In this document: one piece after another, positions 14,780 to 17,256 of the stretch | How the letters are laid out: each line of letters starts with the position of its first letter | Numbering within the stretch: position 1 is the first letter of the stretch | DNA from: Ferrovibrio sp. | GTDB lineage: Bacteria; Pseudomonadota; Alphaproteobacteria; Ferrovibrionales; Ferrovibrionaceae | NCBI RefSeq assembly: GCF_002796975.1 | Contig: NZ_PEKV01000011.1 | Location: 62,338 to 102,374, forward strand | Reading direction: 5' to 3' | Length of the DNA stretch: 40,037 nucleotides | Made by a program: the position numbers and the translations under genes | The notes under the pieces: model-generated | Database searches by the model: none | Seen by the model: only the letters and a program-made list of their open reading frames with translations | Told to the model about the DNA's origin: nothing

Positions 14780-15946
14780 TCAACGCAGCGGTTCGAGGAT
14801 CGAGACGTAGTTGGCCACCGCGACACCGCCCATGTTGAAGACACCGCCGAGCCTGGCATTCTTCACCTGGATGTCGCCGGCAGAGCCGTTCAGCTGCATC
14901 GCTGCCATCACATGCATCGAGACGCCGGTGGCGCCAATCGGATGGCCCTTCGACTTCAGGCCGCCCGACGGATTGACCGGCAGCTTGCCGTCGGCCTGGG
15001 TCCAGCCTTCCTTGATGGCTTTGGCGCCTTCGCCCAGCGCGGTCAGCCCCATGGCTTCGTATTCGATCAGTTCGGCAATGGTGAAACAGTCGTGGCTCTC
15101 GGCAAAGGAAAGATCCCACACGGAGAGGCCGGCTTCAGCCAGCGCGTCGGCCCAGGCCTTGGCCGGGCCCTCGAAGGCGATCACGTCGCGTTTGGCCATC
15201 GGCAGGAAATCCTGCACGTGTTTCGAAGCGCGGAAGGCAATTGCCTTCTTCATGCGCAGCGCCGTCTGCACGTCGGTCATCACCAGGGCTGCGGCGCCGT
15301 CCGACACCATCGAGCAGTCGGTGCGGCGCATGCCGCCGGTCACAATGGGGTTCTTGTCCGACACGGTCTTGCAGAAGTCGTAGCCGAAATCCTTCTGCAT
15401 ATGCGCCAGCGGATTCTTGGCGCCGTTCTTGTGGTTCTTGGCGGCGATCATCGCGGTGGCGTCCGACTGGTCGCCATAGCGCTGGAAATACTGCTTCTGG
15501 ATCGAATCGAACACGCCGGCGAAGCCACCTTCGTTGAAGACCTCGGTCTTCTTGTAGCTCGCCTTGACCAGGATATTGCCGACCATCTCGGTCGAGGCGG
15601 AGGTCATCTTCTCGACACCGATGCAGAGCACGAAACGCGCCTTGCGCGCGGCAATCGCGTTCAGACCCTGATAGATCGCCGCCGTACCGGTCGAGCAGGC
15701 ATTCTCCACCCGCGTTGCCGGCTTGAAGCGCAGCGCCGGATCGGCCTGCAGCACCAGCGAAGCAGTGAAATCCTGGTCGATCAGCCCGCCGTTGAAATGA
15801 CCCAGATAGATCGCATCGACATCCTTCGGCTCGATGCCGGCATCGCGGATCGCCCCGACCGCCACTTCGACGACGAGGTCTTCGGCGTCGCGCCCATCCA
15901 GTTTGCCGAATTTGCTGTGGTGCCAGCCGACGATGCAGGCAGTCAT
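14780..15946 (-). CDS. SCP-x type thiolase (acetyl-CoA acetyltransferase family)
   Basis: The protein has 388 residues. The nucleophilic cysteine is C84 in ENACSTGTAAIYQG; HDCFT (285-289) and GHPIGATG (334-341) complete the active site. HDCF, not the classical CxG ending, marks the SCP-x/non-decarboxylating branch of thiolases. It likely cleaves a 3-oxoacyl-CoA to acetyl-CoA and a shortened acyl-CoA. It is upstream of acuI and the feruloyl-CoA synthase gene on the same strand, suggesting side-chain degradation of an aromatic or acyl substrate. No enoyl-CoA hydratase or hydroxyacyl dehydrogenase is seen beside it. Confidence 0.9.
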   Translation of the reverse strand: MTACIVGWHHSKFGKLDGRDAEDLVVEVAVGAIRDAGIEPKDVDAIYLGHFNGGLIDQDFTASLVLQADPALRFKPATRVENACSTGTAAIYQGLNAIAARKARFVLCIGVEKMTSASTEMVGNILVKASYKKTEVFNEGGFAGVFDSIQKQYFQRYGDQSDATAMIAAKNHKNGAKNPLAHMQKDFGYDFCKTVSDKNPIVTGGMRRTDCSMVSDGAAALVMTDVQTALRMKKAIAFRASKHVQDFLPMAKRDVIAFEGPAKAWADALAEAGLSVWDLSFAESHDCFTIAELIEYEAMGLTALGEGAKAIKEGWTQADGKLPVNPSGGLKSKGHPIGATGVSMHVMAAMQLNGSAGDIQVKNARLGGVFNMGGVAVANYVSILEPLR

Positions 15947-16045: not shown

Positions 16046-16145
16046 GATTCGTTTTGCTCCTTTTTGCTCGCAGGTGTTCGTTTTGCTTCGTTTGCGTTCG
16101 TTGGTGCTCGTTCCGGTTCGTTTGGCTTCGTTTGTGTTCGTGGCC
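16046..16145. repeat. Ten tandem degenerate 10-bp units (GTTCGTTTGN)
   Basis: Cut every 10 bp, this stretch gives units such as GTTCGTTTTG, CTTCGTTTGC, GTTCGTTGGT, GTTCGTTTGG, CTTCGTTTGT. The seven units from 16076 are the best conserved. The period equals about one DNA turn and is not a multiple of three, so this is not coding. It fills the space between two divergent genes. Confidence 0.85.
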
Positions 16146-16174
16146 TGGCTAAGTCCTTGATTTGCCGTGAATGA

Positions 16175-16189
16175 GAACATAAGGCGAAA
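16175..16189. promoter_or_regulatory. LexA-like box 1
   Basis: GAAC-ATAAGGC-GAAA matches the alphaproteobacterial SOS box GAAC-N7-GAAC in 7 of 8 positions. It lies just upstream of the predicted -35 of the next gene. Confidence 0.4.
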
Positions 16190-16194
16190 ATTCC

Positions 16195-16223
16195 TTGCTT
16201 CAAGAGATGGCGACCTGTATATT
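16195..16223 (+). promoter_or_regulatory. Sigma-70 type promoter for the peptidoglycan-binding gene
   Basis: The -35 is TTGCTT (16195-16200), then a 17-bp spacer, then -10 TATATT (16218-16223). Transcription would start about 16230, giving a short leader with a GGGAG ribosome site before ATG 16254. Confidence 0.6.
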
Positions 16224-16235
16224 CACTATCTGTTC
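16221..16235. promoter_or_regulatory. LexA-like box 2 overlapping the -10/start region
   Basis: ATTC-ACTATCT-GTTC matches GTTC-N7-GTTC in 7 of 8 positions and overlaps the -10 and likely transcription start, a normal place for a repressor. TGAGAACA (16172-16179) and TGTTCTCA (16231-16238) also form an exact 8-bp inverted repeat. Confidence 0.45.
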
Positions 16236-16253
16236 TCAATCAGGGAGTCGCCC

Positions 16254-16616
16254 ATGTCCGCCCGAGCCTTTCTCCAGATTCCCAGCCGCGATGACCTCGA
16301 CTGCCTGCCCGATCCGGCCGAGGCCTTCCTGACCAGCGCGCTGGACGGGGCCTTGCGGGGCAATGGCCTGTTCAACCTGCGCGCCGGCGTGGGCAGCGGG
16401 CAGGTCAACGGACATGCCGATGTCTGCAAGCTGCAGGAGCTGCTGCATCTGGAAGGCTATCTCGACATTGCCGCCACCAACGGGCCGACTGGCATCTGGG
16501 GCGCGCGCGAAGATTATGCCCTGCGCAAATTCCAGCGCGACAACGGCCTGGCCATCGATGGCGTCGTGTGGCCCCGCGGCGAGACCATTGAGGCAATCCG
16601 CGGCTTTTCGCAATGA
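16254..16616 (+). CDS. Small peptidoglycan-binding domain protein without signal peptide
   Basis: The protein has 120 residues. Residues of about 56-115 form a PG_binding_1 type domain: DVCKLQELLHLEGYL, then IWGAREDYALRKFQRDNGL, IDGVVWPRGETIEAI. No signal peptide, transmembrane segment or catalytic domain is seen, so export is unexplained. ATG 16254 follows GGGAG. Its stop overlaps the next start in ATGA (16613-16616), so it is coupled to a small membrane protein. The domain is common in phage endolysins and cell-wall enzymes. The promoter bears LexA-like boxes. The role is unknown. Confidence 0.78.
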   Translation: MSARAFLQIPSRDDLDCLPDPAEAFLTSALDGALRGNGLFNLRAGVGSGQVNGHADVCKLQELLHLEGYLDIAATNGPTGIWGAREDYALRKFQRDNGLAIDGVVWPRGETIEAIRGFSQ

Positions 16617-16810
16617 ACCGGCTGTTGATCAGTGCCGTGCTGGGCGCGCTGCTGCCGCTGGCATTCATCGGCGGCATCGCGATGCAGAACGAGAGTCATG
16701 TACTGCACGCAGATCGTGCGGCGTTTCAGATTCTGCTGCCGATGCTGCTGTTCGGCATGATGGCCTTTGCGGTCTGGACGCTGATGCGCCAGCGCCCATC
16801 AGCAGCATGA
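16613..16810 (+). CDS. Small two-helix membrane protein, holin-sized
   Basis: The protein has 65 residues. Helix 1 spans about 4-24 (LLISAVLGALLPLAFIGGIA) and helix 2 about 39-58 (FQILLPMLLFGMMAFAVWTL), joined by a polar loop, with a short basic C-tail RQRPSAA. It is translationally coupled to the peptidoglycan-binding gene. Size and topology resemble class II holins, but no family could be recognised, and many small membrane proteins look the same. It could equally be an anchor for its partner. Confidence 0.65.
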   Translation: MNRLLISAVLGALLPLAFIGGIAMQNESHVLHADRAAFQILLPMLLFGMMAFAVWTLMRQRPSAA

Positions 16811-16956: not shown

Positions 16957-17256
16957 ATGTCGGATCATTCTCCGGACGACAAGACATTCAATCATGCCGC
17001 ATGGCTGCAGAAGCTGCTGACGCATCGTCTGACCACGGCGGAAATCCTCTACCACATGCCTGATCATCCCAGCCTGCTGCAGAGCTATGTCTGGCAGGAT
17101 TACGATCTGGCGCCGAAATTTCCGGTGCTGCAGACGTTTCTCGATTTCTGGGAAGACAGGCTGGACGGCAGGCTGCACAGCGTGCGCGTGGTTTCAGCCC
17201 GGCTGGTGAGTCCGGTGGAAATCCGCGCGGCGGCGGAGAGCTACAGCCTGCATTGA
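16957..17256 (+). CDS. usg: Usg family protein
   Basis: The protein has 99 residues. LTTAEILYHMPDHPSLLQSY, VWQDYDLAPKFPVLQ and FLDFWEDRLDGRLHSVRV form the full Usg signature. The family is almost confined to alphaproteobacteria and is named for an ORF upstream of trp genes in Caulobacter; its biochemical role is not known. ATG 16957 follows GGAGGCGCG; a start 23 codons upstream is possible but outside the family's usual length. It converges on the glycosyltransferase gene 10 bp away. Confidence 0.9.
   Translation: MSDHSPDDKTFNHAAWLQKLLTHRLTTAEILYHMPDHPSLLQSYVWQDYDLAPKFPVLQTFLDFWEDRLDGRLHSVRVVSARLVSPVEIRAAAESYSLH

Follow-up and report, generated by a model that had tools for sequence, protein, structure and literature searches.

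A LexA-boxed gene pair in an alphaproteobacterial genome as a probable cargo-less member of a modular toxin-immunity family

The sequence analyzed was a 40,037-nucleotide stretch (the window, G000:C8:62338-102374) of a 4.23-Mb alphaproteobacterial genome (G000). Within this window, two short genes were found between a thiolase-like gene (14780..15946, minus strand, Thiolase_C_1) and a usg-like gene (16957..17256, plus strand, PF06233, E 8.5e-37), which serve as the left and right synteny anchors, respectively. The first of the two, ORF1 (16254..16616, plus strand), encodes a 120-aa protein with a peptidoglycan (PG)-binding head of the PG_binding_1 type (PF01471, E 4e-8). No lytic domain was detected in ORF1 by Pfam search, in agreement with the initial annotation, and no signal peptide was apparent by eye. 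The protein stops after the PG_binding domain, such that a C-terminal warhead is absent; single-sequence structure prediction of ORF1 yielded a pLDDT of 40 and was unusable. The second gene, ORF2 (16613..16810, plus strand), encodes a 65-aa predicted membrane protein with two hydrophobic stretches, which was assigned to no family by Pfam search and bore no likeness to any holin family; its start overlaps the ORF1 stop codon in an ATGA, indicative of translational coupling. The region 5′ of ORF1 was found to include: (i) an array of TTCG repeated at 10-bp steps and located 5′ of the promoter (16067..16140, plus strand; delimited as 16074-16141 by TRF); (ii) LexA-like box 1 (16175..16189, minus strand), which reads TTTCGCCTTATGTTC on the minus and GAACATAAGGCGAAA on the plus strand; (iii) a promoter, TTGCTT-N17-TATATT (16195..16223, plus strand), with its −35 element TTGCTT at 16195-16200 and its −10 element TATATT at 16218-16223; and (iv) LexA-like box 2, ATTCACTATCTGTTC (16221..16235, plus strand), which overlaps the −10 element and the probable transcription start. 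The boxes, the promoter with its 17-bp spacing, the PG-binding protein, and the ATGA-coupled two-helix protein were all located where the initial annotation had placed them. In a consensus promoter scan, TTGCTT-N17-TATATT fell below the threshold of the tool and was not reported. When four promoters were aligned, the −10 hexamer was invariant (4/4) and the −35 TTGCTT was present in three (3/4); this predicted promoter is backed by conservation rather than by score.

For alphaproteobacterial LexA, the motif described in the literature is GTTC-N7-GTTC (PMC3323433). When the window was scanned with a loose version of this motif (one mismatch), no enrichment was observed, with 18 sites found vs 21.7 expected from shuffled sequence. 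As this is at chance level, little weight can be put on the boxes alone, and a trained matrix was used in place of the loose pattern. Perfect GTTC-N7-GTTC sites were in excess genome-wide, at 71 vs 36 for the reversed pattern. The genome's own lexA promoter contains GTTCTAATGAAGTTC, one-mismatch boxes (e.g., ATTCCCGAGATGTTC and GTTCTCATATCGTTG) are present at the recA promoter in five genomes of the genus, and boxes such as GTACGCTATATGTTC and GTTGGCAATATGTTC are found at imuA promoters. In the window boxes, including box 2 of the one-mismatch class, the single departure from the motif is of the type seen at recA and imuA. The weight matrix was built from 16 lexA, recA, and imuA sites of the genus, with no member of the gene family described below among them, and ranked box 1 (score 16.3) and box 2 (15.4) first and second of ~80,000 window positions, the next score being 13.4. 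The resemblance of the boxes to those of recA, lexA, and imuA, a comparison that had been proposed with the initial annotation, was therefore borne out. Boxes were likewise found upstream of the orthologues in genomes G009 and G013, as well as in G011, with box 1 retained in the first two and more weakly in G011, and with the box 2 orthologues scoring 17-19 by the matrix. Overall, the prediction that the window pair is under SOS (LexA) control is well supported. The genome was also found to have three imuA-like genes (L104, L111, and L113) with LexA-like boxes that differ, and the recA promoters of G005, G006, and G008 are without one-mismatch boxes.

Both boxes and the promoter were conserved in three related loci, and in the sister species G009 and G013 the gene pair was retained together with its ATGA overlap, both boxes, and the −10/−35 elements, as the orthologue comparison suggested at the outset had required. 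The ORF1 orthologues of these two species are 74-75% identical to the window copy. Convincing matches to ORF2 were restricted to three genomes, in which the gene is always directly 3′ of ORF1 with the ATGA overlap (3/3), and the protein ranges from 65 to 81 aa across the three species. A search of genome contigs recovered one close relative only, which was the G009 locus. The dN/dS ratios were 0.26-0.38 for ORF1 and 0.27-0.54 for ORF2 (0.26-0.54 for the pair), compared with 0.04-0.15 for the neighboring usg and thiolase genes; by these estimates, the window pair is under purifying selection, yet fast-evolving. The thiolase anchor is 93-94% identical and adjacent in G009, G013, and G011, while the usg anchor occupies the same position in G009, G013, G011, and G012. 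Between the two anchors, the short pair is present in G000, G009, and G013, while the slot in G011 holds a short head gene, then a head-Tae2 protein, and then a signal-peptide gene; in G012, a Tae2-like member is next to usg on a short contig that does not extend to the thiolase side. Thus, one slot alternates between a full toxin locus and a cargo-less pair. The N-terminal regions of ORF1 and of the Tae2-type head can be aligned. It is likely that the warhead was lost in the window lineage; however, this loss is not proven because (i) no remnants of a Tae2 tail or of its neighbor gene were found downstream of ORF1, and (ii) the head phylogeny had too few columns and was poorly resolved, with firm grouping only for the three short orthologues.

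These observations bear on one explanation of the pair, in which the warhead of an ancestral Tae2-type locus disappeared and ORF1 represents the head that stayed behind; ORF2 would then be either a gene acquired by chance or an antidote, now orphaned, against a toxin that acts on membranes. The full toxin in the same slot of G011 and G012, the alignment of the heads, the faster evolution of both ORFs relative to their neighbors, and the small membrane-protein genes that adjoin other family members are consistent with such a remnant. Retention of the frames, the ATGA overlap, and the promoter in three species at dN/dS values below 1 argues against it, as do the absence of Tae2 traces downstream and the poor resolution of the head tree, and we regard this explanation as somewhat unlikely.

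Searching the genus and family with ORF1 revealed ~30 related ORFs, most of 300-500 aa, which have a common N-terminal head and C-terminal tails that are unlike one another and vary in predicted warhead. The tail of the G011 member in the anchored slot (L126) is a BPSL0067/Tae2-like amidase, matching the BPSL0067 family of NCBIfam (E 2e-21) and the Tae2 structure PDB 6win (E 1.9e-10). The L131 tail is a GH108 muramidase (E 3e-20) with PG_binding_3, L132 and L137 have muramidase-like tails, the tail of L080 is lysozyme-like by eye only and has no database support, and several further tail groups were without assignment. The long members usually adjoin a gene whose product has a predicted location that suits the tail, as judged by hydrophobicity and by eye rather than by a signal-peptide program. 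By this measure, wall-enzyme tails are followed by signal-peptide proteins, the L134/L135/L138/L140/L141/L142/L124/L126(+) group is followed by related, co-directional cytosolic proteins of ~240 aa, and L128/L129/L127 are next to convergent genes for small membrane proteins. None of the 10 immunity-like neighbors tested gave a significant Pfam match; since most of these genes are without a family, the term immunity rests on position and on location predicted by eye. Such a combination of head, tail, and neighbor is what toxin and immunity genes typically show, as far as can be read from the predicted proteins. The candidate immunity gene 3′ of the window ORF1 would be ORF2, which has no family and no warhead to neutralize. 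The lysis or envelope module proposed in the initial annotation was upheld with respect to the SOS-type boxes. In place of a phage or gene-transfer-agent origin, the relatives indicate a family of modular toxin and immunity genes; a lysis role for the membrane protein is conceivable. In a class-wide sample, matches at E < 1e-12 were detected in 20 of 385 genomes. Family members were undetected in G005-G008 of the genus, three of these four assemblies being incomplete. In a further member from the window's own genome (L081:4443-5297), the reading frame terminates prematurely and toxin-like sequence extends into another ORF downstream, which suggests either a disrupted gene or an error in the assembly.

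The promoters of the family were next compared by use of the matrix. At a score of ≥14, hits were detected in 20 of the 30 family promoters, with 0.23 expected, and 25 of the 32 hits in 615,234 positions were inside family promoters, which comprise 3% of the positions. By comparison, the means were 0.96 for randomly placed regions (maximum 6) and 0.48 for column-shuffled matrices (maximum 3). The 10 family ORFs (of 30) without a promoter hit at 14 were mostly from other genera, interrupted, or at contig edges; L130, which was left out of the count, has a hit just 5′ of its interrupted frame. In the distant genus represented by G391, two members have a perfect GTTC-N7-GTTC at the promoter, while most others are without one.

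The route by which such toxins might leave the cell was considered in light of the secretion systems encoded in the genus. The T6SS component VipA/TssB was absent in 10 genomes of the genus; the T6SS machinery associated with a Tae2-type effector locus was thus not found, and T6SS delivery was rejected. VirB4-type T4SS delivery was rejected as VirB4 is absent in G000, G010, and the complete genome of G013, which has five family members; VirB4 homologues are present in G009, G011, and G012, and a T4SS route is thus possible in these three. With heads that are signal-less, and with neither VipA nor VirB4 in G013, lysis of damaged cells would be the simplest release route. Of the features expected of a colicin-type bacteriocin, the box was found for most of the long members, and the heads are signal-less; no T6SS was found.

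Within such a scheme, the window pair may be a release module, with ORF2 acting as a holin-like or colicin-lysis-like protein and ORF1 as its wall-binding partner, such that SOS-induced permeabilization would free the co-induced toxins. This reading is possible, if tentative. It is consistent with the two-helix protein of 65-81 aa that is ATGA-coupled in three species, with regulation that matches that of the signal-less toxins, and with the lack of a T6SS in the genus and of VirB4 in G000 and G013. However, ORF2 is unlike any holin family, no lytic domain is encoded, and ORF2 is missing from the toxin-bearing G011 and G012; thus, it would not be a universal release factor. The initial annotation had further raised a phage or gene-transfer-agent origin, in which the pair would be a domesticated lysis cassette. 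The combination of a PG_binding domain with a small membrane protein does recall the endolysin-holin order, and the best PHROG matches are endolysins, but these matches span only the generic PG_binding domain. Neither a lytic domain nor phage neighbors were found, nothing similar was detected in phage or plasmid collections, the chromosomal neighborhood is conserved, and the relatives are toxin-like; this origin is thus very improbable. PADLOC gave no match, and an anti-phage defense function was rejected.

Taken together, the locus is likely to belong, without cargo of its own, to a modular toxin-immunity family that is probably antibacterial, and to be controlled by LexA as part of the SOS response. 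The same box precedes most of its relatives, which suggest that these bacteria, devoid of a T6SS, possess a colicin-like weapon system. DNA damage would trigger LexA cleavage and open the promoter, as expected from boxes common to lexA, recA, and imuA; lysis of a few damaged cells could then release the toxins in colicin fashion, and the PG-binding head may dock them on the wall of competitors. In the window copy, ORF1 retains the head and promoter and is without a warhead, and hence would not itself be a toxin, which is why we describe it as cargo-less. For ORF2, a small two-helix membrane protein, a role as a release or envelope helper is preferred over orphan immunity or a remnant, with the latter two as close rivals.

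Colicin- and pyocin-type SOS bacteriocins have a LexA-type box, no signal peptide, and an adjacent immunity gene, together with receptor-binding and translocation domains. The family described here is similar in its LexA-type box, signal-less toxin, adjacent immunity-like gene, and, beside some members, a convergent gene for a small membrane protein, but differs in its PG-binding head, its alphaproteobacterial form of the LexA box, and in that no known lysis gene was identified. The Tae2 type VI amidase effector is matched by the C-terminal domain of the G011 member, which adjoins a signal-peptide gene; unlike Tae2, this domain is joined to a PG-binding head, and the genus has no VipA. The window copy does not have this domain. 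Polymorphic toxin-immunity systems (PMC3482391) likewise have a constant N-terminus, a variable C-terminal tail, an adjacent immunity-like gene, and several loci per genome, and PGB1 domains are reported in some toxin polypeptides (PMC3482391). By contrast, the head in the present family is a cytosolic PG_binding_1 domain without a secretion signal, and an SOS-type promoter is held in common; the term LexA does not appear in the accessible portion of PMC3482391. No SOS-controlled family of PG-binding-headed toxins was found by literature search, which, with its partial coverage, is weak evidence. What was retrieved for Alphaproteobacteria was mainly one tailocin and gene transfer agents, and SOS-induced protein bacteriocins known from this class appear to be few. 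The present family would be a coherent one, in which members share a promoter box, bear warheads of several types, and are paired with immunity-like genes. It provides unnamed candidate immunity proteins, several unassigned toxin tails, and a possible toxin release route in T6SS-less bacteria.

The TTCG array was also examined for its relationship to the LexA-like boxes. A pattern search independent of the boxes identified 17 arrays genome-wide in which TTCG recurs every 10 bp (L176-L190, L079, and the window). With the arrays in one orientation, a matrix hit of at least 13 was located within 200 bp on the 3′ side of 13 of the 17 arrays and on the 5′ side of none (0/17), where ~0.004 hits would be expected per 200 bp; a looser cut-off extended this to 16/17. 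In the promoters of L123, L124, L126, and L127, the position of the array 5′ of the short PG-binding gene is conserved and the unit sequence changes, with TTCG-type units in G013 and G011 and other 10/11-bp units in G009 and G012. No arrays were found at lexA or recA in the stretches inspected. These findings point to a putative polar array-box-gene element, which could be a new way of building LexA-controlled promoters. A wider proposal would combine this element, at some promoters, with SOS-induced modular bacteriocins in Alphaproteobacteria that have a PG-binding head, interchangeable warheads, matched immunity, and release by lysis, and with the window pair as the release module; as a whole, this proposal is doubtful. 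The genes that follow the arrays are mixed (MarR, ArsR, GFA, TumE, Gp49/HigB-like, flagellin, desaturase, and rpsD). As rpsD, flagellin, desaturase, and MarR are atypical SOS genes, a regulator other than LexA might read boxes of the GTTC-N7-GTTC type. Such a regulator is improbable, given that lexA, recA, and imuA were the source of the matrix sites and have boxes that share the form and the kind of single mismatch, and that toxins of the toxin-antitoxin type (Gp49/HigB-like and TumE) also lie behind such boxes. These last two genes (L188:1352-1693 and L180:1628-1909, respectively) are preceded by LexA-like boxes with arrays, and an array together with a perfect GTTC-N7-GTTC box precedes rpsD (L187:943-1554), which encodes ribosomal protein S4, an arrangement unexpected for an SOS gene.
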